A stretch of 26,977 nt of DNA. Source: a virus. The position numbers and the translations under genes are program-made. The notes below the pieces were generated by a model. It was not told where the DNA came from. It ran no database searches and saw only the letters and a program-made list of their open reading frames with translations. The stretch spans positions 1 through 26,977 of IMG/VR virus record IMGVR_UViG_3300047356_000211, one strand, 5' to 3'. The first letter of the stretch is position 1, and each line of letters starts with the position of its first letter. This document shows positions 3,455 to 26,977 of this stretch, in pieces.

Positions 3455-3530
3455 TGGTGGAGCTAGAGGGAATCGAACCCACGACCTACTGGTTGCAAAC
3501 CAGTCGCTCTCCCTACTGAGCTATAGCCCC
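3455..3530 (-). tRNA. tRNA-Ala (anticodon TGC)
   Basis: A full cloverleaf reads on the minus strand: acceptor GGGGCTA/TAGCTCC (one G-T pair), D-arm GCTC/GAGC, anticodon stem ACTGG/CCAGT with loop TTTGCAA (anticodon TGC), variable AGGTC, T-arm with TTCGATT, discriminator A and an encoded CCA. The first ten bases overlap the 3' end of the oxygenase gene and supply its last two codons and stop. UGC is the A/U-favouring alanine anticodon, which would suit an AT-rich phage. Confidence 0.95.
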
Positions 3531-5973: not shown

Positions 5974-6731
5974 GGGTCTTCCTCCTTATGTACTGTGCCA
6001 TAGTGAAATTGGTCACCAATTTCCTTGTCTTCCAAATTCTCTCTAGCGTGGTCTAAATTAAATGAGATAGAAATTCTCTCATAGTTATCGGGTAATTCAT
6101 TAAAATCTGTGATGGGTGGTACTGAGTGGAACATTGCTGAGGGCCACATCAAAAACTCACCACATTGTGGGTGAAACATAATTTCAGATTCATGCATCCC
6201 ACTCCCAAGAATACCTGTGTTTTGTGGCATGTAATTTTTTGGTGGTTGTGGATGAGCAACTGTTTGTAACCCAAAATCCATCATTGCATTTGGTGATACA
6301 AATTTGATTGGTTGTGAGTCACTATCCGTCTTAACATAGTAAGTACCACTCACATATGAATTGACATGGTTATGCATTTCATGGTGATGTGCTTTATTGT
6401 AGACGTTGACCCAACAGAAGAAATGTACATCATGTCTTGTCAAATGTGCCACTCTACATCCGTATGTGGCATTTATATAATCAATGTAGGTGTCTTTAAG
6501 TTTGTTTGTCATGTCTATAAACCACGACTCTTTTTGCATCTCTTCACGGATATCACCATCAAAGTATGTGGTGTAATCCATTGCAGTATTCCCCTTGTGT
6601 CTTCTCTTGACCTTAGCGACTGCTCTTCTACACGATTCTGCTATCTCGTGATGATTTGCTTCCAATTCTCCATGCAACATGTAAACTGGAAAGACTGGGA
6701 AGATTGATGCCTTTTGGGGTTGATGGGTCAC
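5952..6731 (-). CDS. Putative 2OG/Fe(II) oxygenase (2OG-FeII_Oxy_5-like, 259 aa)
   Basis: The pattern W.NVYN....H.MHNHVNSYVSGTYYV, then IKFVSP, GEFLMWPS, MFHSVPP and ERISISFN is that of the putative 2OG-FeII_Oxy_5 family, common in aquatic phages. Candidate ligands are the His residues in HEMHNH and the His in MFHSV, with Arg in ERISISF for 2-oxoglutarate. The N-terminal half (about residues 20-115) is mainly helical. The gene starts with GTG, overlapping the stop of the lipoprotein gene as GTGA, with GAGGT upstream. It is the first of four oxygenase-like genes in this operon. Confidence 0.8.
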   Translation of the reverse strand: MTHQPQKASIFPVFPVYMLHGELEANHHEIAESCRRAVAKVKRRHKGNTAMDYTTYFDGDIREEMQKESWFIDMTNKLKDTYIDYINATYGCRVAHLTRHDVHFFCWVNVYNKAHHHEMHNHVNSYVSGTYYVKTDSDSQPIKFVSPNAMMDFGLQTVAHPQPPKNYMPQNTGILGSGMHESEIMFHPQCGEFLMWPSAMFHSVPPITDFNELPDNYERISISFNLDHARENLEDKEIGDQFHYGTVHKEEDPWDNRSQ

Positions 6732-7255
6732 TTAGATTGCACCTCTGCTACTACTCCCTGTGAACCATCTTTCATGGTTACATTACGATACACTACAATC
6801 ACTTCACCGAGTTGTTTGATGTATCTCTTAATCTCTTGATTGTTCTGTATCATGACTTTGTAATCACCTACTGTAGATGCAACAAAAACCACATCACCAC
6901 TGTTCTGTGCTTTCATCTCATCCAAGAACCTATCTAAGTATGTGTATCCTACTGGCCAATCGGGATTCTCTCTTTCGAGTAAATCACATGTCTTTGGTCT
7001 TTTAAGTTGTTCTACACCTTCGTCATTGAATCTCTTAGGTTCAAATGATAATGTTCTTTTACATGGATTTGTTATACGTGCTTCTGACACTACGTACCAT
7101 TTAGGAACTCCAAGTTCAAGTGGTCTTGGTAGTGTTGGTTGTATAATATCTATCTCTACAGGTTTAGATACTATTTGCACTTCCCTCTGTGGAAGTAATG
7201 AACAACTAGTCGTTAGAACTAGTAGACTCAAGATTACTAATTGCTTTTGAATCAT
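6728..7255 (-). CDS. Outer-membrane lipoprotein, probable o-spanin (175 aa)
   Basis: The N-terminus is a lipoprotein signal: basic MIQKQ, hydrophobic LVILSLLVLTTS, then Cys18, with Ser at +2, which favours the outer membrane. The start has AGGGGG upstream and lies 50 bases inside the preceding membrane/coiled-coil gene. That embedded-lipoprotein layout is the hallmark of Rz/Rz1-type spanins, which fuse inner and outer membranes at the last step of lysis. At 175 residues it is longer than classic Rz1, with a folded C-terminal domain (about 50-175, including PKWYVVSE) also seen in other marine phages as far as I recall. It could instead be an unrelated envelope lipoprotein. Confidence 0.6.
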   Translation of the reverse strand: MIQKQLVILSLLVLTTSCSLLPQREVQIVSKPVEIDIIQPTLPRPLELGVPKWYVVSEARITNPCKRTLSFEPKRFNDEGVEQLKRPKTCDLLERENPDWPVGYTYLDRFLDEMKAQNSGDVVFVASTVGDYKVMIQNNQEIKRYIKQLGEVIVVYRNVTMKDGSQGVVAEVQSK

Positions 7256-7589
7256 CTTCTATCCCCCTAATTACTTCTTCGGTACCTTTGTTGAATCTTA
7301 GTTCCATCAACCCTGGCTTTGCAACGGATAGTTTTTCGAAGTTATGTTTACTTAAGATTGAAAGGTATTGTGCCTTATCCGCCTCAATCTGTGCGTTTTG
7401 TCTAGTGAGATTCGATAGTGCTTGTGATTGTCTTTCGAAGTTCTCCTTAATTGATGCAATCGCATCTTGTTGTTCCTTTACCGCAACCTCAAGAGCAGCG
7501 TTATTCTTTACCAAGACTTCATTCTGTTGATATAGATAATAACCACCGAGACTGAGTACGATAATGATACCAATGAAAAATTGATTCAT
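7206..7589 (-). CDS. Inner-membrane coiled-coil protein, probable i-spanin (127 aa)
   Basis: The N-terminus is a single membrane helix (FFIGIIIVLSLGGYYLY, about residues 4-20) followed by a long heptad-like region (about 25-90, rich in Gln, Glu, Ala and Leu) and a polar tail. That is the topology of an Rz-type i-spanin: anchored in the inner membrane with the coiled coil in the periplasm. The lipoprotein gene begins inside its 3' end, as in other spanin pairs. The start has GAGGAG upstream, formed by the final codons of the preceding gene. The membrane-first pairing argues for lysis rather than secretion. Confidence 0.65.
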   Translation of the reverse strand: MNQFFIGIIIVLSLGGYYLYQQNEVLVKNNAALEVAVKEQQDAIASIKENFERQSQALSNLTRQNAQIEADKAQYLSILSKHNFEKLSVAKPGLMELRFNKGTEEVIRGIEDDSKAISNLESTSSND

Positions 7590-7902: not shown

Positions 7903-8406
7903 CTAGTCGGTTTTTCTAAGTTCTTTTAGTTGGTTGATGGTGTCTTCCGCACTAGTGTGTAGAATACCGATACCACCGTGTGCTTCCCATGCATCAAGGT
8001 TCTGTTTTCTGTCATCAATAAGGACACTTCCTTTGATTGCAAACATACCTTTCTGACTACCAGTCATAGTGCAAGTGACTACCACTGTAGGACTCACATG
8101 TTCCTTAATCCATTCGTTCTTATCGAACACTACCAACTCTCTGTTGACGACACCAGCTGCAGTTAGGATTTCCCATGGCAATCCAGTGTGTCTTACATAT
8201 CCTACCAAATCATACATATCTGGCATAGGTGGTAACATTCTGAACAATCTCTTGTTCGTTAACTCTTCCTTCCTTTCGTCATAATCGTTATGACCTTGGT
8301 CGGTGTTAGGGAATTCTCTCCCTGTCAATGTTTCAACTCCAGTGTTGAAATCCGCTAGTACTCCATCCATGTCGATGAAGATTCTCTTTACTTTTCTATT
8401 TTCCAT
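7903..8406 (-). CDS. HAD hydrolase, 5'(3')-deoxyribonucleotidase-like (167 aa)
   Basis: The catalytic HAD motif FIDMDGVLADF is at the N-terminus with Asp12 (nucleophile) and Asp14. Motif II is ILTAAG (Thr82), motif III the Lys in GSQKG (Lys119), and motif IV VLIDDRKQN (Asp131/Asp132). The spacing, short cap and NLDAWEAHGGIGILH end match the NT5C 5'(3')-deoxyribonucleotidase family, which removes phosphate from deoxynucleoside monophosphates. It follows the nrd operon, so a role in tuning nucleotide pools is likely. The ATG is 6 bases from a TATACT box with no Shine-Dalgarno, implying a leaderless message. The motif so near the N-terminus makes a later start impossible. Confidence 0.8.
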   Translation of the reverse strand: MENRKVKRIFIDMDGVLADFNTGVETLTGREFPNTDQGHNDYDERKEELTNKRLFRMLPPMPDMYDLVGYVRHTGLPWEILTAAGVVNRELVVFDKNEWIKEHVSPTVVVTCTMTGSQKGMFAIKGSVLIDDRKQNLDAWEAHGGIGILHTSAEDTINQLKELRKTD

Positions 8407-16373: not shown

Positions 16374-17141
16374 TTATACCTGTGAGTTTCTTTTGATTAA
16401 GTCAAAGAGTTGGGCAGGTTCGTATTTCTTTTTCTTCTTTACCACTGGTACATCTGTTGCAACTGCAGTACCTGTAGCATTCAAGGGCGCATCTTCTAAT
16501 ATATCATATTTAAAATACTTCATACATGCATCCGCTAGTTGGTATCCTGCTATCTTATCACTAGGATAGTGGATACCAGCATGGACTCTACCCAGTGCAG
16601 AGATTTCTGCCATTGCCAACAATTCAGATTTATGTTGGGGATAGATTGATGAGTAGTAGTTTGCAACTACTCTCGCCTGTAAAGCATGGTTTGAAGGATA
16701 TGATGGGGATTGTGCAGTATCTGTATTGAAATAGTCCATTTCCATACCTAGTTTCTCTGCAAGTACATAAGGTCTCGGTCTCATGTATTTATTCTTGAAT
16801 TGTCTACCAATGTGTCTTGCACTATCTGTGATTTTTTCTATATCATCATCTGTATATGCTAAATCATTGTTCGACATGTATTCTTTGATGTAGTATGAAG
16901 TGTCTTCATCTGTGTTTAGATAACGTTTCTTCTGTTCATCTGTAAGTTTCTGAATCATACCAACCATCTGTTTGAGTTCTTTGATGGTTTGTGGACTAGA
17001 ATTGGCAGTATTCGGATTTAAAGATAACTCCTCCAAAACTTTAGTGTCGAACAATTCACCCAATTCTTCTATCTTGGGTTTCTTAGTCTTCCCTGTATGT
17101 TTTAGACTGTCTACGTTTACTACTGCCTCAATAAACGTCAT
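16374..17141 (-). CDS. PAP2-family acid phosphatase (255 aa)
   Basis: All three PAP2 motifs are present: K116-x6-R123-P124 (KNKYMRPRP), P149-S-N-H152 (SYPSNHA) and G184-R185-x5-H191-x3-D195 (GRVHAGIHYPSD), with His191 as the predicted nucleophile. The NHALQARVVA region and GRVHAGIHYPSD resemble class A nonspecific acid phosphatases and vanadium haloperoxidases rather than membrane-spanning lipid phosphatases: there are no membrane helices and no signal peptide. The N-terminal 105 residues are hydrophilic and helical. It overlaps the preceding gene by 14 bases and is followed 2 bases later by the membrane protein. Substrate could be a nucleotide, a phospholipid head group or another phosphomonoester. 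Confidence 0.85.
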   Translation of the reverse strand: MTFIEAVVNVDSLKHTGKTKKPKIEELGELFDTKVLEELSLNPNTANSSPQTIKELKQMVGMIQKLTDEQKKRYLNTDEDTSYYIKEYMSNNDLAYTDDDIEKITDSARHIGRQFKNKYMRPRPYVLAEKLGMEMDYFNTDTAQSPSYPSNHALQARVVANYYSSIYPQHKSELLAMAEISALGRVHAGIHYPSDKIAGYQLADACMKYFKYDILEDAPLNATGTAVATDVPVVKKKKKYEPAQLFDLIKRNSQV

Positions 17142-17713: not shown

Positions 17714-17789
17714 TGGAGCTCCCAAACCGATTCGAACGGTTGACCTACTGATTACAAATCAGTTGCTCTACCAACTGAGCTATGGGAGC
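17714..17789 (-). tRNA. tRNA-Thr (anticodon TGT)
   Basis: A complete cloverleaf on the minus strand: acceptor GCTCCCA/TGGGAGC (all seven paired), D-arm GCTC/GAGC, anticodon stem ACTGA/TCAGT with loop TTTGTAA (anticodon TGT), T-arm AACCG/CGGTT with TTCGAAT, discriminator T and an encoded CCA. It begins 2 bases after the stop of the 123-aa gene, so it is cut from that transcript. TGT, like the TGC of tRNA-Ala, reads A/U-ending codons. Confidence 0.95.
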
Positions 17790-18235: not shown

Positions 18236-18655
18236 TTATACTAATGAACCGTAAACTTTGAATGAACCAGTTTCTAGTTTTTCGTATCTAACCTTTAGGG
18301 TATATGCTTTAGATGATTCTTCGAACTCATCGTTTGGTGTGTCTACAGTCTTACCAAATGACTCATATCTTGTGAACTCTAAATCCATCTCTCCAGCGTC
18401 ATCAAACTCTTCGTTCTGTACAACACCCATTTCACCAACACTTCTTAGTTTAGTCATTCCTAACTGCATAAGTTTAGATTCCATCTGTTGCAAAGCAGCA
18501 AGTGGATTCATGAACTCAACTGTTGCAGTGTGTCCTAAGATAGCGTTAACTTTTTGTTTAACAACCGAATCATCAACGTCAAATGGTACCTTCTCTGAAG
18601 ATAGACCAGCGCCGTCCATATATGATTCATCTAAAAAGTCTTTAAATTTCTTCAT
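18236..18655 (-). CDS. Putative capsid-internal protein with CTS-like N-terminus (139 aa)
   Basis: The N-terminus MKKFKDFLDESYMDGAG resembles the T4 capsid-targeting sequence (from memory MKTYQEFI followed by an E-x cleavage point), and Leu-Asp-Glu at residues 8-10 fits the prohead protease rule (L/I)-x-E. The rest is an acidic alpha/beta protein with a beta-rich C-terminus (AYTLKVRYEKLETGSFKVYGSLV); no enzyme motif is seen. AGGGAAA precedes the ATG. Last gene before the terminator. The targeting role is inference from the peptide and the neighbourhood. Confidence 0.6.
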   Translation of the reverse strand: MKKFKDFLDESYMDGAGLSSEKVPFDVDDSVVKQKVNAILGHTATVEFMNPLAALQQMESKLMQLGMTKLRSVGEMGVVQNEEFDDAGEMDLEFTRYESFGKTVDTPNDEFEESSKAYTLKVRYEKLETGSFKVYGSLV

Positions 18656-18671
18656 AATTTTTCCCTATTGT

Positions 18672-19226
18672 TTATGCAACTACAGTAATTGTACCAGCAG
18701 CAGTTCCAACTCCAGCAATGTTAGTAATTACTGATGCAACGTTAGTACCTTTATCTTTAATTGTACCACTGTTTAATGCGATTGCGTTAGCACCAATTGA
18801 AAGTACATCACCAGCATTTGTAGCAGCGTTAGCAGCAGCAATTACTAATGTGAATACTAGTTCGTTAGTACCTGAACCACTTGCGTATGATAATACGTGT
18901 GGGCCTCTTCCACTTCCATTGTTAGCAACAGATAGTTGAGGTGTTCCAGTTACTGTTACATCTTCGTTAAAAGTTGCAGTAACAGATAATGTTCCACCTT
19001 CTGACTTATCAAAAGCAGTGATATTCCAATCGATATCAGTTAAGTTAGCAGCACCCAAGGCAGTAGTTAGATTTTTCATCGCAACTAATGTTTCAGTCAA
19101 AGTTCTTGAACCAACTTTACGAACTAATTCCCAACCGTGTGGTTTTGCTACAGTTTTTTGTTTATCAGCATCAGATAACCAATTTGGTTTTGATTCTGAA
19201 CCTGAAGTATGTCCCCATAATGCCAT
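18672..19226 (-). CDS. Probable virion surface protein with Ig-like/SwmB-type repeat (184 aa)
   Basis: After a short start (MALWGHTSGSESKPNWL) like that of many cyanophage virion proteins, the second half is low-complexity beta-sandwich sequence: SVTATFNEDVTVTGTPQLSV, then LVFTLVIAAANAATNAGD and ASVITNIAGVG. TFxExVxVTGTPQL is the signature of SwmB/Ig-like repeats found in surface adhesins. The protein is rich in Ala, Thr, Gly, Val and poor in Cys. It may decorate the capsid or tail. GAGG lies upstream. Because it is surrounded by genes with CTS-like N-termini but has none, it is more likely exterior than internal. Confidence 0.6.
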   Translation of the reverse strand: MALWGHTSGSESKPNWLSDADKQKTVAKPHGWELVRKVGSRTLTETLVAMKNLTTALGAANLTDIDWNITAFDKSEGGTLSVTATFNEDVTVTGTPQLSVANNGSGRGPHVLSYASGSGTNELVFTLVIAAANAATNAGDVLSIGANAIALNSGTIKDKGTNVASVITNIAGVGTAAGTITVVA

Positions 19227-19239
19227 TTTTATTTCCTCT

Positions 19240-19785
19240 TTATTTGTTTGCGACTTTCAATATAGCATCAAAAGTCTTTTTAAACGTTTTAGCGTCTTTC
19301 TGTAAAAGTCTAGAGTATTTATCACGAATAGGGGCCTTAACCTTCATTAAAGTATCATAAACCTTTACCGCATCATCTCTCTTTACTTTCGTCTTTTTAT
19401 TATCGTTGGTGGAGACTTCTCCATCCTTAATATGGTCTCTAAATTGACCAAGTTGGACAACGATATTTTTATCTGCCCATGCCTGAGAACCCATTGCAGT
19501 ATCTTGGAAGGCAGAAATTGCCCTATCAAGTACTTCATCTTCAGTTGCTTCAGAATACTTTCCGCCGGCCATTGTAGAAATTTTCTCTAACTTTTGTTTG
19601 AGTTCTTTCTCCGACTTAGACTGTTTAACGGCACGTGCAATTTTCTTATTACCAGCATCAGACATCATACCAAAGTCACCCGCCTTTTCTAAAACAGCGT
19701 TAGTTTCTTTTGCCTCTTTCTTTGCATATCCCAGTTTCTTTAATTTTTCTTTAAAGAGTTTATATCTGGCGTCTACTCTATCCAT
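19240..19785 (-). CDS. Basic helical protein of the virion block (181 aa)
   Basis: I do not recognise this family. The protein is Lys-rich and almost entirely helical: MDRVDARYKLFKEKLKKLGY at the start, KKIARAVKQSKSEKELKQKLEKI in the middle, and KDAKTFKKTFDAILKVANK at the end. High positive charge and position suggest DNA or scaffold contact inside the capsid. The ATG shares one base with the stop of the preceding gene (TAATG), so translation is coupled. It lacks a CTS-like N-terminus. Confidence 0.6.
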   Translation of the reverse strand: MDRVDARYKLFKEKLKKLGYAKKEAKETNAVLEKAGDFGMMSDAGNKKIARAVKQSKSEKELKQKLEKISTMAGGKYSEATEDEVLDRAISAFQDTAMGSQAWADKNIVVQLGQFRDHIKDGEVSTNDNKKTKVKRDDAVKVYDTLMKVKAPIRDKYSRLLQKDAKTFKKTFDAILKVANK

Positions 19786-20006
19786 TATCCAAACCTTTTG
19801 GCGAATGTTTTAAGGTCGATAGTTTCAAAGTCTCCAAACTCATTCTGAACTCTGAATCCTAACTTATTACTACCATATATTACTGGTTTAGCATTATAAG
19901 TACCGTTCTTGTATTTTAATCCACTAATCTCTGAACCGTATATGCCCAACTTTTTCATTTTTGGTGCCGCTTCTACGATACTTCTATAGGTTTCCATTAA
20001 GTTCAT
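19785..20006 (-). CDS. Small protein with CTS-like N-terminus (73 aa)
   Basis: The N-terminus MNLMETYRSIVEAAPKMKK fits the capsid-targeting pattern, with Ile-Val-Glu/Ala at residues 10-13 matching the (L/I)-x-E cleavage rule. If cut there, a domain of about 60 residues remains, beta-rich (LKYKNGTYNAKPVIYGSNKLGFRV) like a small barrel. The ATG comes one base after the stop of the large gene upstream and one base of its own stop starts the next gene. A related pattern (MDSYRNMWEESLDEA) occurs inside the large upstream gene. Function unknown. Confidence 0.6.
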   Translation of the reverse strand: MNLMETYRSIVEAAPKMKKLGIYGSEISGLKYKNGTYNAKPVIYGSNKLGFRVQNEFGDFETIDLKTFAKRFG

Positions 20007-20007
20007 G

Positions 20008-21345
20008 TTACTTTAACCCCTTGTTTAACATCTTATCGATTTGAGGTGTTGATGTGTCTTTTTCTGTTGGGTCACCATATGATGATTTACCAATGACTAC
20101 TCTTAGAAAGTCATTGACTGCCTTCTTACCACCTTTGAGTCTGACATGTTTACCCATCAATGAACTTTTTAAACCAAATCTTTTTGCCTGTTTTGCAATT
20201 TCCATTGCATGTTTGTTTTGGTCAGCAGGTTTTGGTATTTTGTTTCTTATATCCACAGTGAGGTCTGCAACTGCTTCATCTAGTGATTCTTCCCACATGT
20301 TTCTGTATGAATCCATAACAGATTCATTTTTCTTTTTCTTTGCGATTGCGATTGCTGCCTGTTGTGCAGATGCCATTTCTGTTGTAAGAACTTTTGGTTT
20401 AAATTTCTTTAACACTTCTTTGTGATACTTGGTCATGTCATACTTACCAGCATCAATTGCAAGTTCACCTTGACTCAATCCGTCATCATTGATTTCTAGT
20501 TTGATTAACTGTTGACTTTTAAAGTAGTCTAATGCTTTTTGAGCATCTCTTTTGTTTTTGAATTTGTATTCTGCATACTCTACTTTTTCTTGTATGTTAT
20601 CACCCTGTTTGAGATATTTTTTTGCTTTAACTCTATCGTGATAAGTGAACTTGTAGGTTTTACCATTCTTATCGTCTTTAACTTGATAATCCTTTGCAGA
20701 CATCTTAGTGACTTTACCCATGTACTTAGCACCGTCAGCACGATAATAATCAATCTCTGTTCCTACTTTGATTGAGTTCTTTGTTTCAGTACCCATACCA
20801 TGTTTTGCAAGAACTCTATAGTTCTCTGATACAGTTTCTTCTTTGATTTTACCTTTGACTATGTCTTCAAGGTCACGAGATAACCAATCAAAAAACTCAT
20901 CGGGGTCATCACTATGAATTTCATTGTTGTTCAATGCCCATTGAGTTAGGTCATCTTCCGCTTTCTTACCAGCAGAAGACATGAATGATAAATCACCAGT
21001 TTTGTATGCTTTTGTAAGTTCTCTTTTATGTTTTCTGAAGAGGTCTTTCATCTTTGCTTCTGATACAACTTCTTCGTTTGCGTATCTTAATGCACTCTGA
21101 ACTTCTTTTGATTTAAGTATTTTATCACCAAAAAAGTTTTTAATTTCTTTAGCAGCGATATCCATAGCACCACTCATGTCGAGTGCAACTTCTACTGCTC
21201 TTTTGACTTTGGAGTCTGATACTTTATTCTTTTTGAAATAAGAAGCGACTTCTTGACCAGTAAGTTTCTGTTTACCGTATGGCCCAAGTGGATTTACTTT
21301 ACCATCTTTGTCTAGAACTTTTTTTGCTTCGTGAAATATGTTCAT
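20008..21345 (-). CDS. Large virion-block protein with repeated CTS-like peptides (445 aa)
   Basis: The protein starts MNIFHEAKKVLDKDG, a start I remember from cyanophage virion-associated proteins. It then has a helical region (to about 160), a small beta domain (about 180-250; GTEIDYYRADGAKYMGKVTK), a region with VEYAEYKFKNKRDAQKALDYF, a motif ASAQQAAIAIAKKKKNE also common in cyanophages, and an internal VMDSYRNMWEESLDEAVADL that resembles a second targeting peptide with Leu-Asp-Glu/Ala. The C-terminus is basic. The internal site could let a prohead protease split the product. The ATG has GGAG upstream (TTTGGAGTATAAGT). Probably a capsid-internal polyprotein-like product; inference. Confidence 0.6.
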   Translation of the reverse strand: MNIFHEAKKVLDKDGKVNPLGPYGKQKLTGQEVASYFKKNKVSDSKVKRAVEVALDMSGAMDIAAKEIKNFFGDKILKSKEVQSALRYANEEVVSEAKMKDLFRKHKRELTKAYKTGDLSFMSSAGKKAEDDLTQWALNNNEIHSDDPDEFFDWLSRDLEDIVKGKIKEETVSENYRVLAKHGMGTETKNSIKVGTEIDYYRADGAKYMGKVTKMSAKDYQVKDDKNGKTYKFTYHDRVKAKKYLKQGDNIQEKVEYAEYKFKNKRDAQKALDYFKSQQLIKLEINDDGLSQGELAIDAGKYDMTKYHKEVLKKFKPKVLTTEMASAQQAAIAIAKKKKNESVMDSYRNMWEESLDEAVADLTVDIRNKIPKPADQNKHAMEIAKQAKRFGLKSSLMGKHVRLKGGKKAVNDFLRVVIGKSSYGDPTEKDTSTPQIDKMLNKGLK

Positions 21346-21347
21346 AC

Positions 21348-22295
21348 TTATACTCCAAATATTGCGTATGCGAGATTGTCATCATGTTTAATGATGATTG
21401 ATGCAACGTCTTCTCTAAACATTGTGTCACCGTTATAAGCAGCAACAATTTCTTTATTGAACTTTGGTGTCATATGTGGAATGCCATCATCGTTAACAAG
21501 AGTAACGTTATCCATTGCTTTCATCAACATCTTACCATACTTTTGAGAATCTTTAAACTCTGATTCTCTTTTCATCAATTTTTTGAGGTCTTGTTTGATT
21601 TTATTGAGTGATGCAGACTTGTACTTGTACTCTACAAAGTCTTCCATTCCTTGACTGTTGTCTTCTTTAACTTTTTTTTTCTTGTCGTAAGAGCAGTCAC
21701 CCAATTTTAAGAACTTTTTTACAGGTTTTGCTTTTCCTTCTTCGACTTCTTCTTCCTTTATCAATCCGTTCTTGTGTTTCTTTGCAAGTTTGGTAACAAG
21801 TTTCAACATACTTTTATAGTCGTTTGCAGTATCACCCTCGATATAATCACCATCTTCATCTTCTACTGATACTTCATATGGCATTTTACCATCATTATCT
21901 TGTGAACCAACAAAGATATTGTATTTGCCTAGACCACCAAAATCTATTGCACCTGTATTATAATCAGAATCACTCATTCTGAAATCGACATTTTTACCAA
22001 CTGCTCGAGAAACTACTTTCTGAACATCTTTCATTTCTTTATCTTTCAGAATGATTTTAGCCTTTTCAGATAAATTTGCTTCTTTGACTTCTTCTTCCTT
22101 CTCACCCTTGTAGTTTTTATCTACATAGTCAAAGAACTTCTTTTTCTCTTCGTCTGATTTGAAATCAGCAGGTGTATTTACACCAAACTTTTTAAGTGCT
22201 GCTTTGAAGAACACTTCATATTCGCCTTCCATGGCGAGTACTGCTTCCATTGTGTTGATTAGGTCTTCTGATAAACCCATAGATGTGAATTTCAT
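21348..22295 (-). CDS. Virion-block hypothetical protein (315 aa)
   Basis: Begins MKFTSMGLSEDLINTMEAVL, a start I recall from conserved T4-like aquatic phage proteins near the capsid genes. The sequence alternates helical parts (residues 1-60, 100-130) with a beta-rich part (DFGGLGKYNIFVGSQD..., about 130-170) and a Lys-rich stretch (KAKPVKKFLKLGDCSYDKKK). Glu-rich linkers (EKEEEVKEANLSEKAK; EEEVEEGKAK) separate them, one with Leu-Ser-Glu that could be a protease site. The C-terminus (FREDVASIIIKHDDNLAYAI) is compact. Start overlaps the upstream stop as TAATG, with GGAG upstream. No function assigned. Confidence 0.6.
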   Translation of the reverse strand: MKFTSMGLSEDLINTMEAVLAMEGEYEVFFKAALKKFGVNTPADFKSDEEKKKFFDYVDKNYKGEKEEEVKEANLSEKAKIILKDKEMKDVQKVVSRAVGKNVDFRMSDSDYNTGAIDFGGLGKYNIFVGSQDNDGKMPYEVSVEDEDGDYIEGDTANDYKSMLKLVTKLAKKHKNGLIKEEEVEEGKAKPVKKFLKLGDCSYDKKKKVKEDNSQGMEDFVEYKYKSASLNKIKQDLKKLMKRESEFKDSQKYGKMLMKAMDNVTLVNDDGIPHMTPKFNKEIVAAYNGDTMFREDVASIIIKHDDNLAYAIFGV

Positions 22296-22873
22296 TATTG
22301 TTTTAATTCTCCATTTTCGAAGTAGTCGAACATTTTCTCTTTACCTTCTTCATCCAAACGTAAAGATTTTGCCAATCTACCTAACATATTTCTTTCTACG
22401 AGTTTTTCTACAGTTTTTTCTACTGAAAGATTCTCTTCTTGTACTGTTTCTTTGATACCTGCATCTTTAAACATTTTCATTAGTTTACTATTGGTAGGTA
22501 GTGTAATCTTTTTCTCTTTACCTAATTGAGAAACTAACTTTTCAAATCCTTTTGGATTTTGTTTCTGCATTTGTTGTACAACTTTAACACCAGTCATACT
22601 TAGCATCTTTGCAACACCGTATTGTGAATCCTTATCTCCTTTAAGATTGAACAATTGGTCAATCATTGCACCAGCGGATGCTTCTAGGAGAATTTCTTCT
22701 TCAATTGTTTCGGTGGTCTCATCCTCTTGGAAAAACTTTTTAAGTTCTTCCTCAATCTCGTTATTGATTACTGTATCATTATCAAGAACTTCTTCCACTA
22801 CTACAGCAGGTTCTCGACCAAAGTTACGGACTTCGTCTAGTTTGTCTTTCCAGTTGTCTTTGTTATAACTCAT
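22295..22873 (-). CDS. Acidic virion-block protein with LLE/A site (192 aa)
   Basis: The first half is strongly acidic (EEVLDNDTVINNEIEEELKKFFQEDETTETIEEE) and ends in ILLEASAGAM, where Leu-Leu-Glu/Ala is a good match to the T4 prohead protease rule. The second half is basic and helical (QQMQKQNPKGFEKLVSQLGK). An acidic, cleavable front half with a basic back half recalls scaffold or core proteins trimmed during head maturation. The ATG lies 8 bases after a perfect TATAAATA late box and has no Shine-Dalgarno. Function is inference. Confidence 0.6.
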   Translation of the reverse strand: MSYNKDNWKDKLDEVRNFGREPAVVVEEVLDNDTVINNEIEEELKKFFQEDETTETIEEEILLEASAGAMIDQLFNLKGDKDSQYGVAKMLSMTGVKVVQQMQKQNPKGFEKLVSQLGKEKKITLPTNSKLMKMFKDAGIKETVQEENLSVEKTVEKLVERNMLGRLAKSLRLDEEGKEKMFDYFENGELKQ

Positions 22874-22881
22874 AGTACTAT

Positions 22882-22889
22882 TATTTATA
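22882..22889 (-). promoter_or_regulatory. T4-type late promoter (TATAAATA)
   Basis: Perfect TATAAATA on the minus strand. It incorporates the stop codon of the cupin-like gene (ATA TAA ATA) and lies 8 bases before the ATG at 22873, so the leader would be only about 2-3 bases. Confidence 0.7.
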
Positions 22890-23175
22890 TATTCTCTATC
22901 CTTACCACCAAGTCGCCATGACCCTTAATTAATCGGTGGTATGTCTCTTTGAGAATAAAGTATTCGCCTCCAGTAGCAAGTGTTTCAGGTAGTTTATCAT
23001 CTAATTGTAACTTCCAATCCATACCTGAAAGGATTCGAAGTGTTCTATTTGTTTTATCTCTATGCCAAATGAGGTCATTTTCATCGACTGTTTCTGAGAA
23101 TGTCCTTATTATATATGGTAACCCAGTACCATGTTGTTCGTAAAGTGTTTCTGTATATGGGTTGTCACTGGTCAT
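22885..23175 (-). CDS. Cupin-like small protein (96 aa)
   Basis: The core pattern LIWHRDKTNRTLRILSGMDWKLQLDDKLPETL followed by GGEYFILKETYHRLIKGHGDLVVRI is a compact beta-barrel: a lead His-Arg-Asp turn, alternating strands and a second His in YHRLIKG, like a single cupin domain. From memory, close matches occur in many T4-like aquatic phages beside capsid genes. Metal binding via the two His positions is possible but incomplete for a classic cupin. AGGA lies upstream. Its stop codon forms part of the TATAAATA box for the next gene. Confidence 0.65.
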   Translation of the reverse strand: MTSDNPYTETLYEQHGTGLPYIIRTFSETVDENDLIWHRDKTNRTLRILSGMDWKLQLDDKLPETLATGGEYFILKETYHRLIKGHGDLVVRIENI

Positions 23176-23184
23176 AATGTATTC

Positions 23185-23721
23185 CTACCAGTAAAAACTA
23201 CCTCCATCGGATAGTCCTAACTGTTTTGCATAATATGGTAATCTACATGCCCAATAAGCAGCAGAAGTTTTATCTTTTTGTTGTGAACACTTGTGTCTAG
23301 CAGCGAATGATTTACGTGCTTTTTCGTTACCAAGTTTCACCTTTAAACCTGTAGTGTCACCCCATGTTACTTTCTTAATTTTGTCTCCGTCTTTAACATA
23401 GACATAGTATTTTTTTGGGCCACCTGCTTTTGGTTTATTTAATTCGGGTTGTTTCTTTTCTTCCGCCTCTACTATCATCGGACAATCGAGGGGTACTAGA
23501 TTACCCTCATATACTTCAAAATCTCCAATATCTGTCTCTAGTATATGTTTATCGACTTCTGTGAGTCTATATCGTCCTTCACTGACTAACTTTCGTGCTT
23601 CTTTGATGGTCTCAAAGAACATTAAGGAACCCAACCTGAATGGGTTGTCGAGGATGTTGGTATTAGTCTCTTGTAGTGTATCGAGTGTCTCGATAAGAGC
23701 TTGGTCTTTAAAGGTCTTCAT
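23185..23721 (-). CDS. Two-domain virion-block protein, CTS-like start and DUF5872-like C-terminus (178 aa)
   Basis: The start MKTFKDQALIETLDTLQE is CTS-like (Leu-Ile-Glu at 9-11). The N-terminal domain carries GRYRLTEVDKHILETDIGDFEVYEGNLVPLD, which I recall from cyanophage proteins. It ends in CPMIVEAEEKK, an Ile-Val-Glu/Ala site, and after a linker comes KKYYVYVKDGDKIKKVTWG...RKSFAARHKC...YWACRLPYYAKQLGL, the DUF5872-type domain (name from memory) with two conserved Cys. A protease cut at the linker would separate the two domains. Its ATG shares a base with the upstream stop. Function unknown. Confidence 0.65.
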   Translation of the reverse strand: MKTFKDQALIETLDTLQETNTNILDNPFRLGSLMFFETIKEARKLVSEGRYRLTEVDKHILETDIGDFEVYEGNLVPLDCPMIVEAEEKKQPELNKPKAGGPKKYYVYVKDGDKIKKVTWGDTTGLKVKLGNEKARKSFAARHKCSQQKDKTSAAYWACRLPYYAKQLGLSDGGSFYW

Positions 23722-24038
23722 TATGATTCGGTTTCTTCACCTATAGGGACACAGTTTGGTACTTGTTTGCCATTTTTCATCTTGTAACCTTTCTGAACAT
23801 AACCATCCCAACATGCTTCTTCTAGTTTCTCTTCCTTCTGATAAGGATATCCCTTTAATGGATTTTGGAACACTTGACTGAAGTGTTTCTTTGTCTTTTC
23901 TGTTTGTTCTTCATTGACGAGTGCAATCTGTGACAAGTATTCTTCTACAGTTTGCCCAGGCGTGTCTTCTTGGTATGCTTTACGGATTTCGTCTGTTCCT
24001 ATTTCGTGAACACCATTATCATGTTTATTTCCTGTCAT
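23721..24038 (-). CDS. Small virion-block protein with KNGKxVPNCVP tail (105 aa)
   Basis: The C-terminal motif ACWDGYVQKGYKMKNGKQVPNCVP matches a short module (CW.GY...G.K.KNGK.VPNCVP) repeated at the end of many T4-like aquatic phage proteins, from memory, with two conserved Cys. Directly before it is KLEEA, where Leu-Glu-Glu/Ala fits the protease rule. The N-terminal 60 residues are acidic and helical. The start at 24038 has GGAGAG upstream. The module's role is unknown; with DUF5872-like it recurs in the same neighbourhood, so both may be structural add-ons. Confidence 0.6.
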   Translation of the reverse strand: MTGNKHDNGVHEIGTDEIRKAYQEDTPGQTVEEYLSQIALVNEEQTEKTKKHFSQVFQNPLKGYPYQKEEKLEEACWDGYVQKGYKMKNGKQVPNCVPIGEETES

Positions 24039-24102
24039 GTCTACTCTCCAATTCCATGTATAAAATACATATAGTTATTAATACTACAAACCAAAATGTC
24101 AC

Positions 24103-25224
24103 TTAACCACCTGCTTTCTTAGCAAGGTCTTTATCAGCACCACCCCAAGTTCCTTTACCTTTTGTGATAAAAGAATTAACACGAGCATGTCCCCACTGTT
24201 CTGGCGTTGTGCCTGGTCTGTGACCAGTTTTCCAAGCGGCGACTCCTCTGTTATAAACTTGTTGTAGAATACCCTTAGCGATTCCTGACTTGTCTGCTTT
24301 CTTTGCAAGGGATTTACCAGCATCTTCACCAAACATCTTTTGGAATTTCTTGGTGTGTTTTGATGGTTTTGTTTCTGCACTTGAATCGCCTGGCGCTGGG
24401 CCATCTTTCTTCTGTGCAAAATGAGCGGCACGTTTTTGTTTGGTGGATTTGGACATCTCATCACCATCAGCATCCTTTGCATAATACTTAGATGGTTGTG
24501 TACCTTTACGGTCTTTGATATCTTTGTCCTGTTTAACTTCCTGTACATCACCAAACTTAAGAAATAATCTATTTTTCTGTTGTTTCTTATCAGTCACTTT
24601 ATGATTTACAAATGCCCCTACGGTATTAATCATACCAAGACCTTTTTCGGGGTTCCTTTTGTATTCTGTCTCTAGTTTATCTTTAAGTTTTTTGAAGATG
24701 ACGTTAATAATATCACCAATATCTGAGACATATTTACCTTCTTCTACAGAGTCTTCTTCTCTAAGTCTTGGTTCTTTTCTGTTATAATTTTGAGAAACGA
24801 TACTAAGATTAGACTTATCGTTGTTCATAGGATTATTGTCCTTATGGTGAACGTCCTTTCCTTTTATATCTTTTCTGTCCTTTAGACTTCTTCGTGCTTC
24901 ATTTCTTTTTGCACGTCTTTTAATTTGGTCGGGTTTTGAGTGATAATTTGCATACTCTTTTTTGTAATCCCGCTCTTCGTTCGCCTTTCTATCAGCGTCT
25001 CGTTTTGCCTTGATTTGGTCATCTTTTACTTCTTTCTCATCTTGACCTTTCTGTCTCTCACTCTCTCTTTCGTGTCTATCAGTAAGTGCTTCTAATTCGG
25101 TCTCGTGTTTTGTTTTAAGACGTTCCAATTCTTCTGCTTGTTTTGCTTTTAGTTCCGCTGCTGCGACTGCATCCTCTTTTAAGGATGTAAATTGATGAAG
25201 TAATGTTTCTAATCTTTTAGTCAT
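24103..25224 (-). CDS. Coiled coil + HNH-like + DUF5824-like protein (373 aa)
   Basis: Residues 1-90 form a long charged coiled coil (Glu/Lys/Arg-rich). About residues 100-150 carry RRAKRNEARRSLKDRKDIKG then DVHHKDNNPMNNDKSNLSIVS, an HNH-type signature in which HH..N.....N fits the first strand, helix and second Asn of HNH nucleases. The last 60 residues (SGIAKGILQQVYNRGVAAWKTGHRPGTTPEQW...ARVNSFITKGKGTWGGADKDLAKK) match the DUF5824 module, named from memory. In virion-type blocks of aquatic phages this HNH-like module is frequent and may be a packaged nuclease rather than a homing enzyme. The ATG is 5 bases after a TATAAATA box, with no Shine-Dalgarno. Confidence 0.7.
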   Translation of the reverse strand: MTKRLETLLHQFTSLKEDAVAAAELKAKQAEELERLKTKHETELEALTDRHERESERQKGQDEKEVKDDQIKAKRDADRKANEERDYKKEYANYHSKPDQIKRRAKRNEARRSLKDRKDIKGKDVHHKDNNPMNNDKSNLSIVSQNYNRKEPRLREEDSVEEGKYVSDIGDIINVIFKKLKDKLETEYKRNPEKGLGMINTVGAFVNHKVTDKKQQKNRLFLKFGDVQEVKQDKDIKDRKGTQPSKYYAKDADGDEMSKSTKQKRAAHFAQKKDGPAPGDSSAETKPSKHTKKFQKMFGEDAGKSLAKKADKSGIAKGILQQVYNRGVAAWKTGHRPGTTPEQWGHARVNSFITKGKGTWGGADKDLAKKAGG

Positions 25225-25229
25225 AATAC

Positions 25230-25237
25230 TATTTATA
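25230..25237 (-). promoter_or_regulatory. T4-type late promoter (TATAAATA)
   Basis: Perfect TATAAATA on the minus strand, built on the stop codon of the nucleotidyltransferase-kinase gene (ATA TAA ATA). The ATG at 25224 is 5 bases downstream, so transcription should start at the start codon. Confidence 0.7.
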
Positions 25238-26651
25238 TCTTTCCAATAACTGTCTTCTTACCAGTCTTTCTACTTTTGAATGTTTTTAAATTTGACCCAA
25301 ACGGACTTGATTTATCTGTTGGTGGTTTTTTCACCCTATCTTTACTTTTCATAGATGAATACCCAGTAGTATCCTTCTTCAGCAGTTCGTAAGATTTCCA
25401 ATTAAGTGCAATTTTATTTTTAGGGAATGAAGTAGTCCAACTCATTAGTTTACTAAAGAGACTATTAGACTTTCTCTGTAGTGCGTTTAAATCATCATCG
25501 TTGGAAATTTCTACGTAGTCTCTACCGAATATCTTTTTAAGGTCTCTTGCATTTTTCTGCGCCTTATCCCAGTCTTGTTTTACAATTTCTTGCGGCAACT
25601 TTCTAGGTCTCATATCATTTCGTTTTTGAGCATTGTCTAATGATGCATTAACAAATATCATTTTCGATTCATATCCAATCGAGTCTAACATCTTCTTGTA
25701 TGAATTAACCTTGGATAGGTTTGCACTAGTAGTGTCAAATATCAACCCTAGTCTACCTTCTATATATGCATCCATATTCCTTCCAGTAATCCTTTTCGCC
25801 TTTGCACGAATGGGGTCTATTTTATCAAAGTCTGCACCTCTAAGGTCTAGAGATAATCCTGCTTTCTTTAATCCATTCTCAAATGCTTTATCAGTGTTGA
25901 CTAACTTTAAACCAAGTGCTTTTAATGAAAGTGCATCAACTACTGTTGACTTACCACTGCCTGGCCCACCTGAAAAGAAAACTGCTTTGAATACGCCTGG
26001 GTCATATACACCCTCTGTAATTAAGTCTTCCATCATGTAGTGTGGTAGTGTACCTTCTGCAATACCCATTCCTTTACGAATGTCTTTGTACAATTTGTCT
26101 GCAAGTCGTTTGCCTTTTGTGGGGACACCTTCCTTAAATGATTCAAAGTCTCCCTTCTCTGCAAATGCTCTCATTTTACTTGCACTCATTCCACTTACGT
26201 CATCTGAATCGGGGTCTCTTTCTCCAGCAGATACAATCTGTATTTCATCAAACTTGTAGAAACCGTGTCTTCCCTTTACACTATTATACTTATTGATAAT
26301 AGTCTCAAACTCTCTAACTCTATCTGACCCCACTATCATCCGAATTTTTCGGTAGTTCTTATCATATAGGTATGTTAGGATTTGGAAAATCTGTTTGACA
26401 TCAGCGTCAATTACATTCACGTCTTTACCGAAGAATGCTTTTAGATACTTAACTTTATCTTTGTGTGACAGCGGATTCTTTACTTTGTCATTTGAGTGTG
26501 ATGAGAATAAAAGTACATCACCAAATGATTTTTGACTTGCGAGTTTCTTTACTAGTTTCTCGTGACCAGTTGTTGGTGGATTGAATCTACCGAAGGTGAA
26601 TACTGCACCTTTATCTTTTGCTTCTGTTAGAAATTTTCCGAATTTTTTCAC
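25233..26651 (-). CDS. CTS-like peptide + nucleotidyltransferase + P-loop kinase fusion (472 aa)
   Basis: Residues 1-12 (MKKFGKFLTEAK) are CTS-like with Leu-Thr-Glu/Ala at 8-11. Next is a cytidylyltransferase-like Rossmann domain: FGRFNPPTTGHEKLVKKL (T-x-G-H), IVGSDRVREFE, and SGMSASKMR as the ISSTxxR-like motif (about 15-190). After DLITEGVYDPG, an Ile-Thr-Glu/Gly site, comes a P-loop kinase domain (about 220-390) with FFSGGPGSGKST, NTDKAF and RPRKLP, like zeta-toxin or polynucleotide kinase-type folds. The C-terminus is basic. The GTG start overlaps the upstream TGA as GTGA. Similar fusions are known in cyanophages from memory; the reaction is not. Confidence 0.75.
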   Translation of the reverse strand: MKKFGKFLTEAKDKGAVFTFGRFNPPTTGHEKLVKKLASQKSFGDVLLFSSHSNDKVKNPLSHKDKVKYLKAFFGKDVNVIDADVKQIFQILTYLYDKNYRKIRMIVGSDRVREFETIINKYNSVKGRHGFYKFDEIQIVSAGERDPDSDDVSGMSASKMRAFAEKGDFESFKEGVPTKGKRLADKLYKDIRKGMGIAEGTLPHYMMEDLITEGVYDPGVFKAVFFSGGPGSGKSTVVDALSLKALGLKLVNTDKAFENGLKKAGLSLDLRGADFDKIDPIRAKAKRITGRNMDAYIEGRLGLIFDTTSANLSKVNSYKKMLDSIGYESKMIFVNASLDNAQKRNDMRPRKLPQEIVKQDWDKAQKNARDLKKIFGRDYVEISNDDDLNALQRKSNSLFSKLMSWTTSFPKNKIALNWKSYELLKKDTTGYSSMKSKDRVKKPPTDKSSPFGSNLKTFKSRKTGKKTVIGKI

Positions 26652-26833
26652 GACATCTTCTCTCTTTCTTTATCTACTAAGTCATTCATGATTTCCATAT
26701 TTTGGTCACCAGTTTTACTACCGTCATACTCATATGCTTTTTCGGGGTCACCTACAACCCAATCATCGTCTTTGAATTCTATATCAGTTTGAGCTGGATA
26801 CTTAGGTAATGCAAACTCTCTGAATGATTTCAT
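26648..26833 (-). CDS. Small acidic protein with CTS-like N-terminus (61 aa)
   Basis: MKSFREFALPKYPAQTD opens the protein: the first eight residues fit the targeting pattern, but no (L/I)-x-E follows soon after. The rest is acidic and probably largely unstructured (IEFKDDDWVVGDPEKAYEYD). The ATG at 26833 shares one base with the stop of the upstream gene; a GTG 12 bases earlier is in frame but would overlap it further. It leads directly into the nucleotidyltransferase-kinase by GTGA overlap. Function unknown. Confidence 0.6.
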   Translation of the reverse strand: MKSFREFALPKYPAQTDIEFKDDDWVVGDPEKAYEYDGSKTGDQNMEIMNDLVDKEREKMS

Positions 26834-26977
26834 TACTTGTCCCACGCTTTCATTGCAGTGAAGTTATTGTATGCAAACTCCATTCTGTCAACAAGTTTTA
26901 CTGCACTTCCAGTTCTATCAATTGCAACATAACCCTCGGGGTTGACCGCCTCGAACCCCTTATCGGTTCTTTTGAAT
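26833..26977 (-). CDS. C-terminal fragment of a larger gene, ligase-tail-like
   Basis: The frame is open from the window edge to TAA at 26833-26835 and gives 47 residues: FKRTDKGFEAVNPEGYVAID, then an RTGSAVKLVDRMEFAYNN stretch, ending MKAWDK. EGYVAI followed by VKLVD resembles motifs IV and V of covalent nucleotidyltransferases (RNA/DNA ligases), where Glu and Lys line the active site, but the diagnostic K-x-D-G lies outside the window. It may equally be another phage family ending this way. The gene is coupled to the CTS-like protein by TAATG. Confidence 0.55.
   Translation of the reverse strand, partial: FKRTDKGFEAVNPEGYVAIDRTGSAVKLVDRMEFAYNNFTAMKAWDK

Follow-up and report, generated by a model that had tools for sequence, protein, structure and literature searches.

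The 26,977-base virus record IMGVR_UViG_3300047356_000211, analysed here over its whole length (the window), comes from a marine T4-like phage, a virus of bacteria. Two of its proteins, a 472-amino-acid (aa) fusion of a nucleotidyltransferase with a P-loop kinase and a 139-aa protein of unassigned function, start with ten residues that match the capsid-targeting sequence (CTS) of T4 internal proteins (IPs) at all four functional positions. Judged from sequence, a T4-type CTS is the best reading of both starts, and four further genes with related starts are weaker candidates. Both proteins would be loaded into the capsid through this tag, the fusion would probably be cut into its modules, and the products would be delivered with the DNA, a reading to which we assign a probability of about 0.78. 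The basis obtained here consists of sequence, register, conservation, synteny, and the protease and capsid genes of close relatives; from it we infer that in this phage the proteins are targeted, cleaved, ejected and active. The features on which the argument turns are as follows.

25233..26651, minus strand: nucleotidyltransferase (residues 11-199), linker (200-213) and P-loop kinase (214-472), proposed capsid-packaged polyprotein (profiles, AlphaFold2 (AF2) model)
26622..26651, minus strand: CTS MKKFGKFLTE of the fusion enzyme, proposed cleavage before Ala11 (exact register, homologue conservation)
26013..26057, minus strand: inter-domain linker between the protease-like sites GI-x-E199 and LI-x-E213 followed by G214 (conservation, pLDDT)
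18236..18655, minus strand: 139-aa protein, function unassigned, with an exact CTS (register, homologues)
18626..18655, minus strand: CTS MKKFKDFLDE of the 139-aa protein (23/23 metagenomic homologues)

Two starts in the T4 register

The original prediction had brought together six genes by their related first residues. All six starts are present as placed, in open frames on the minus strand: MKSFREFALPKY (26833, 12 bases inside an open reading frame (ORF) whose listed start is a GTG at 26845), MKKFGKFLTEA (26651, a GTG start), MKTFKDQALIET (23721), MNIFHEAKK (21345), MNLMETYRSIVEAA (20006) and MKKFKDFLDES (18655). Four of them do end in (L/I)-x-E, as had been noticed (LTE, LIE, IVE and LDE), and L/I-x-E is the cleavage site of T4 (PMC9026906). 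The kinship is, however, uneven, since only two of the six (26651 and 18655) fit the exact T4 register. According to mutagenesis of T4 IPIII, targeting depends mainly on residues 4 and 7 and processing on residues 8 and 10 (PMC9026906), and the exact rule applied here requires an aromatic residue or Leu at position 4, an aromatic residue at 7, an aliphatic one at 8 and Glu at 10. Among the 41 genes taken for the window, it selects 25233-26651 and 18236-18655 and none of the other four named genes; the idea of six equal CTSs was rejected, the exact register being that of two only.

Such matches are rare by chance. In two cyanophage proteomes, the exact rule is matched at 1/874 and 1/849 internal Met positions, and with assumed rates of 0.0005 to 0.0015 the binomial P for 2/41 is 0.0002 to 0.0018. 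In a control on a 50-kb T4 segment, the rule picks two of 69 coding sequences (CDSs), which are IPII and IPIII (69 of the 75 CDSs were used, two cut and four alternative-start CDSs being excluded); it misses T4 IPI, which has its site further in. T4 IPII and IPIII start with MKTYQEFIAE, and the 26651 and 18655 peptides fit the same register at all four functional positions. Past the first 12 residues, no significant similarity was found among the six proteins (blastp, best off-diagonal E 0.72).

Conservation of the tag

The homologue lists comprised the best 80 of 130, the best 80 of 592 and the best 80 of 579. The register of the fusion-enzyme CTS is kept in 53 of the 58 distinct metagenomic homologues, with up to three extra start residues allowed: K2, E10 and K12 do not vary wherever they are present, Ala occupies position 11 in 50/54, positions 4 (F/L), 7 (F/W) and 8 (aliphatic) stay in class, and positions 3, 5, 6 and 9 vary. 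In the 139-aa family, the exact register is found in all 23 metagenomic homologues, with K2, F4 and E10 invariant and a gappy spacer behind the tag. Conservation tracks function, as the functional columns are kept and positions 3, 5, 6 and 9 are freer. At more distant nucleotidyltransferase loci (best 80 of 579), 76 carry the CTS register, three do not and one was unread, as scored by a script that favoured the in-frame start yielding a CTS.

Other genes carry similar starts. Two in the corresponding region of Methylophilales phage Melnitz-1, beginning with MQGFKTFLSE and MINFSKYITE, fit the register by eye. In the related record G006, a further gene (L078:8394-8843) with the start MKQFKDFITE fits the CTS register and gives no Pfam match; an ART-like look of this gene, and of the N-terminal part of an Atu_ph07 protein described below, was seen by eye and is unsupported by Pfam.

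Related records with protease and capsid genes

A gp21-type protease (Peptidase_S77) was found in four of 11 related records. One of 57 kb (G002) encodes 472-aa and 139-aa proteins 100% identical to those of the window and ends in a partial protease. Another, of 120 kb (G001), encodes a 139-aa protein 99% identical to that of the window and has gp21, gp22 and gp23 homologues, of which that of gp23 contains an LEE|A site around residue 52.

A two-domain enzyme with internal sites

The fusion enzyme matches the phrog cytidyltransferase family (1.6e-59) and, above Pfam cut-offs, CTP_transf_like, Zeta_toxin and AAA_33. Its first domain is a nucleotidylyltransferase fold (NMNAT/PPAT-like) and its second a P-loop kinase. 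Residues 13-198 resemble PPAT 5h16_A (Z 14.5, rmsd 2.9, 155 aligned; VIA) and NadD 5db4_B (Z 13.4, rmsd 3.1, 156 aligned; VIA). The AF2 model (mean pLDDT 68, pTM 0.43) places the nucleotidyltransferase at about 13-198 and the kinase at about 219-405, and its confidence (pLDDT) falls below 50 at 1-11 and 200-219, that is, at the tag and around the linker. A PDB sequence search with the fusion-enzyme family gave no match.

The original prediction had not included the two further protease-like sites of the fusion, nor the conserved locus around it. E199, E213 and G214 are invariant over 58 rows, with a free P2. Seven Glu columns are near-invariant, and among them only residues 10, 199 and 213 have an aliphatic P3 and a variable P2 together with A/G/S in most rows at P1' (93, 72 and 100%, respectively). 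In Pelagibacter phage HTVC008M and in Melnitz-1, both classified under Kyanoviridae, the kinase is a separate gene that starts with MIPFILKE|GLYDPG or MKTFAELQE|GVYDPN, a few residues ahead of the same Glu-Gly. In Atu_ph07, the kinase is preceded by a different N-terminal part, with the junction SEVTE|GVND, and Melnitz-1 gp17 is a nucleotidyltransferase fused to stretches matching three separate window genes. Modules have therefore been fused and separated, and Glu sites lie between several of these modules. With two extra sites bracketing the linker and a stand-alone kinase that has a CTS-like start in two relatives, the fusion thus looks like a polyprotein cut in the capsid. At even odds, one mobile 10-residue tag and internal gp21 sites would build capsid-matured polyproteins whose modules are joined, split and re-joined among T4-like ocean phages.

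A competing view of these sites, to which we give somewhat less than an even chance, is that they stay uncleaved and that the fusion enters the capsid and acts there or in the host as a single bifunctional protein with a NadR-like layout. The Foldseek order (ATP sulfurylase, NadR 6gyf, bifunctional ATP sulfurylase-APS kinase) speaks for it, with whole-chain TM-scores of only 0.24-0.30, but the invariant Glu and Gly around a variable P2, the low confidence at 200-219 and the stand-alone kinase genes that begin a few residues before the same Glu-Gly point towards cleavage. NadR itself has an adenylyltransferase-type domain followed by a P-loop kinase, but the kinase here matches Zeta_toxin and AAA_33 in Pfam, and the NadR equivalog model gives the fusion only 27.2 bits, far below its cut-off of 341.15. 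A role in early-infection NAD supply, raised by others for cyanophage relatives, is speculation.

The four weaker candidates

The remaining four genes named in the original prediction are the following.

26648..26833, minus strand: 61-aa protein, degenerate CTS MKSFREF- without a cleavage site (family comparison)
23185..23721, minus strand: 178-aa protein, variant CTS-like start MKTFKDQALIE followed by T; matches part of Melnitz-1 gp17
20008..21345, minus strand: 445-aa protein, short variant MNIFHE followed by A (homologue rows)
19785..20006, minus strand: 73-aa protein, variant MNLMETYRSIVE followed by A (8 aligned rows only)

The 26833 family shows the full register in 10/12 members (e.g. 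MKSFKQFLEE), and the window copy, which is without the residues between MKSFREF and ALPKY, is one of the two exceptions. Packaging of this protein thus fits most of its family but not the processing of the window copy, which may be targeted yet uncut because its cleavage site is lost.

In most rows of the 23721, 21345 and 20006 families, a hydrophobic-x-Glu site is kept in shortened or shifted form. In the first family, MKT(F/L) is conserved, Glu11 is found in 51/64 aligned rows and no other column among the first 20 varies as much as residue 10. The second has MN(L/I)FxE|A, with Glu6 in 56/61 and Ala7 in 49/61, and the third Glu-Ala-Ala in 8/8 rows, which are few and mostly near-identical. 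These partial matches are no more than suggestive of CTS variants. That the three starts resemble a CTS by chance comes close to an even bet without reaching it: none has the exact register and Glu is missing from 13/64 rows of the 23721 family, but most rows of each family keep a hydrophobic residue-x-Glu with a variable middle residue near the start, and T4 propeptides are reported to span 7 to 65 residues. The capsid packaging originally proposed for the whole set thus holds best for the nucleotidyltransferase-kinase and the 139-aa protein, with their exact and conserved register, and these three genes retain a partial match only.

Virion detection in cyanophage relatives

Five of the six exact-rule proteins of S-CREM2 are in its published virion list of 52, the sixth (gp175) being unlisted, vs 47/213 other CDSs (Fisher 0.003). 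The five are a SAM lyase, an APH-like kinase, a nucleotidyltransferase and two unknowns; their bodies are non-homologous and the tag alone is common to them. In S-SCSM1, gp91 (a nucleotidyltransferase) matches the exact rule and is virion-flagged, and gp30 matches and is unflagged. The S-SCSM1 scan used six-frame ORFs of at least 40 aa hand-matched to annotated CDSs, and 48 flagged proteins were counted in the record vs 45 in its paper. S-SCSM1 is the sole phage scored after the exact rule was set (1/2); S-CREM2 and S-SZBM1 are not blind tests because the rule was adopted after the starts of both had been seen. Over the three lists, 6/10 exact-rule proteins are detected vs 124/709 others (Fisher 0.0035). 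An earlier loose rule (5/9 detected in S-CREM2 and 1/4 in S-SZBM1) and an earlier strict rule (5/7 and 0/3) were superseded by the exact one.

Relatives of the nucleotidyltransferase are virion-listed in S-CREM2, S-SZBM1 and S-SCSM1, all with a CTS-like start; that of S-SZBM1 starts MRFRQFIIE, one residue short. A putative cytidylyltransferase (T4-GC190) was also reported from S-SM1 virions (PMC3037559). Of the nucleotidyltransferase packaging originally proposed, virion detection of cyanophage relatives is thus published, and delivery and peptide removal are inferred.

The stretches syntenic with the window locus are rich in virion-listed genes in S-SCSM1 (89-97, 7/9, P 8e-5), and the corresponding figures are 4/7 in S-CREM2 (gp154-160, P 0.057) and 3/10 in S-SZBM1 (133-142, P 0.14). 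Pooled, they hold 14/26 virion-listed genes vs 116/693 elsewhere (P 3e-5), within limits set by eye and, for S-SCSM1, after its table had been read.

A virion-listed Cas9-like nuclease of S-CREM2 (L008:7704-10313, minus strand) contains FASFMAE|A from about residue 17 and not at its annotated start; this protein gave no Pfam match at E 0.01.

Points against packaging and delivery, and further alternatives

Several observations weigh against the proposed packaging, cleavage and delivery. The original prediction had named homologues without the peptide as adverse evidence, and most homologues keep it, but among the 58 fusion homologues a CTS is missing from four, and a fifth carries a deletion of one residue. 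Neither HTVC008M nor Melnitz-1 fits the exact register in either family: the nucleotidyltransferase starts MKTLKELLRKK in HTVC008M and is one residue short in Melnitz-1, and the 139-aa relatives start MKSFKDFQNVNEK and MKNFKNHIAEE, respectively. Virion data on the window phage or on the 139-aa family were not found. In relatives, the pooled detection is only 6/10, and the exact-rule proteins gp191 and gp192 of S-SZBM1 are both outside its list of 30 (0/2). The authors of the S-CREM2 and S-SCSM1 studies caution that such proteins may be carry-over, and virion presence alone would not prove ejection. As for the internal sites, the Glu columns 114 and 208 likewise show an aliphatic P3 with a variable P2, P1' being the only point of difference, pLDDT is also below 50 at 146-152, 244-249, 264-302, 428-457 and 469-472, and AF2 places a helix at 204-212, within the linker; the conservation of these sites could reflect folding.

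It is unlikely that the tagged proteins serve in the prohead as core or scaffold-linked components that stay in the head or leave it, instead of being delivered to the host as effectors. T4 IPIII is thought to be active in head morphogenesis (PMC9026906) and the S-SM1 cytidylyltransferase was reported among structural proteins, but the tagged set has unrelated bodies and enzyme-like members (nucleotidyltransferase, kinase, SAM lyase). Still less probable is a start conserved as a short helix for folding, expression or membrane contact, with mass spectrometry hits from co-purifying abundant proteins: residues 5-12 of the 139-aa protein are helical in AF2, and the carry-over caveats and the S-SZBM1 result agree with it, but it sits poorly with an exact functional register in which Glu10 is invariant where present and residue 9 freer, and with unrelated proteins carrying the same tag and listed in three virion proteomes.

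Proposed route

Under packaging and delivery, the window would contain a portion of a marine T4-like phage locus that encodes virion-packaged proteins, in which an N-terminal M-K-x-F-x-x-F-(L/I)-x-E acts as a T4-type CTS. Residues 4 and 7 would carry the precursor into the prohead core, where a gp21-type protease would then cleave after Glu10. The fusion would probably also be cleaved at the conserved (I/V)-x-E|G and perhaps at I-x-E199, and the freed nucleotidyltransferase and kinase would enter the cell together with the DNA.

Genomic setting

From the claimed genes, the minus strand of the window continues to a primase (sequence comparison) and to nrdA, nrdB and several oxygenases (by eye and synteny). 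Homologues lie in the same order in HTVC008M, between the annotated primase-helicase and primase, and in Melnitz-1, ahead of the primase homologue. Profile and family searches gave nothing for most of the unknown proteins of the window, and no Foldseek match to the AF2 model of the 139-aa protein reached E 0.001. Other features of the locus are listed below.

24103..25224, minus strand: DUF5824 protein with a sub-cutoff HNH-like stretch and no exact-rule CTS; partial matches to HTVC008M gp130 and Melnitz-1 gp17
23721..24038, minus strand: 105-aa protein; matches part of the HTVC008M and Melnitz-1 nucleotidyltransferase proteins
25230..25237, minus strand: T4-late-promoter-like TATAAATA, alone not above chance
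22882..22889, minus strand: T4-late-promoter-like TATAAATA, alone not above chance

The motif TATAAATA, which we take to resemble the T4 late promoter, has three matches for 2.06 expected. NATAAATA occurs within 100 bases upstream of the starts of 5/19 genes from 14982 on vs 0/22 others (P 0.016), which is only a hint, as the grouping was made after the fact.

Near the locus, 16374-17141 encodes a PAP2-superfamily phosphatase-like protein (PF01569, 4.1e-11). The 5'-nucleotidase (NT5C) at 7903-8406 is without a CTS in the window; HTVC008M gp134 (annotated as deoxyribonucleotidase) and Melnitz-1 gp21, homologous by eye, have N-terminal extensions ending in VQE and INE. Two overlapping small ORFs at 6728-7589, with lipoprotein-like and membrane-anchor-like starts, are spanin-like by eye only. 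The minus strand also carries tRNA-Thr (tgt, 17714-17789) and tRNA-Ala (tgc, 3455-3530).

Known systems and significance

Published work was drawn on in excerpts (PMC10665884, PMC9964418, PMC9602691, PMC9146016, PMC9026906, PMC5512222, PMC12373910, PMC9503650, PMC3037559, PMC7029224). The closest known systems are T4 IPI, IPII and IPIII, which share the functional tag positions (MKTYQEFIAE|A in IPII and IPIII) and likewise have unrelated bodies behind one tag. The cargo considered here differs in that it is marine, is known from sequence and extends to a two-domain enzyme of 472 aa in which further candidate sites occur. Many ip genes of T-even phages have already been found through the CTS signal (PMC12373910), and a review proposes the CTS as a general packaging route for various proteins in T4-like phages (PMC9026906). 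T4 Alt is also a head-packaged, gp21-processed and injected enzyme, but it is an ADP-ribosyltransferase and no homology is claimed. The virion cytidylyltransferase/NMNAT proteins of cyanophages (T4-GC190 and others) have a homologous nucleotidyltransferase domain in S-CREM2, S-SZBM1 and S-SCSM1, but the excerpts concerned mention no targeting signal for them, and for the kinase domain none of the cyanophage records compared gave a match at E 1e-5. Polyvalent proteins are phage proteins of several domains for which entry with the DNA has been predicted, and some are proteolysed, but a T4-type CTS and inter-domain gp21 sites are unmentioned for them in the excerpted text (Iyer et al. 2017, PMC5512222).

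CTS packaging of varied proteins by T4-like phages and the virion association of the nucleotidyltransferase are thus already in print. The link between CTS and nucleotidyltransferase in marine phages and the capsid-matured polyprotein were not found in the open-access literature searched, from which we do not claim their absence from print.

The virion lists of cyanophages hold enzymes that are unexplained or ascribed to possible carry-over, and the conserved tag would explain them. The predictor of delivered proteins used in T-even phages would extend to marine phages and, if the reading is true, the injected effectors of abundant sea phages could be predicted by the tag with sequence as the only input. 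Furthermore, the known cargo of T4-type heads would broaden to include a precursor of two enzymes that is cut in the capsid.

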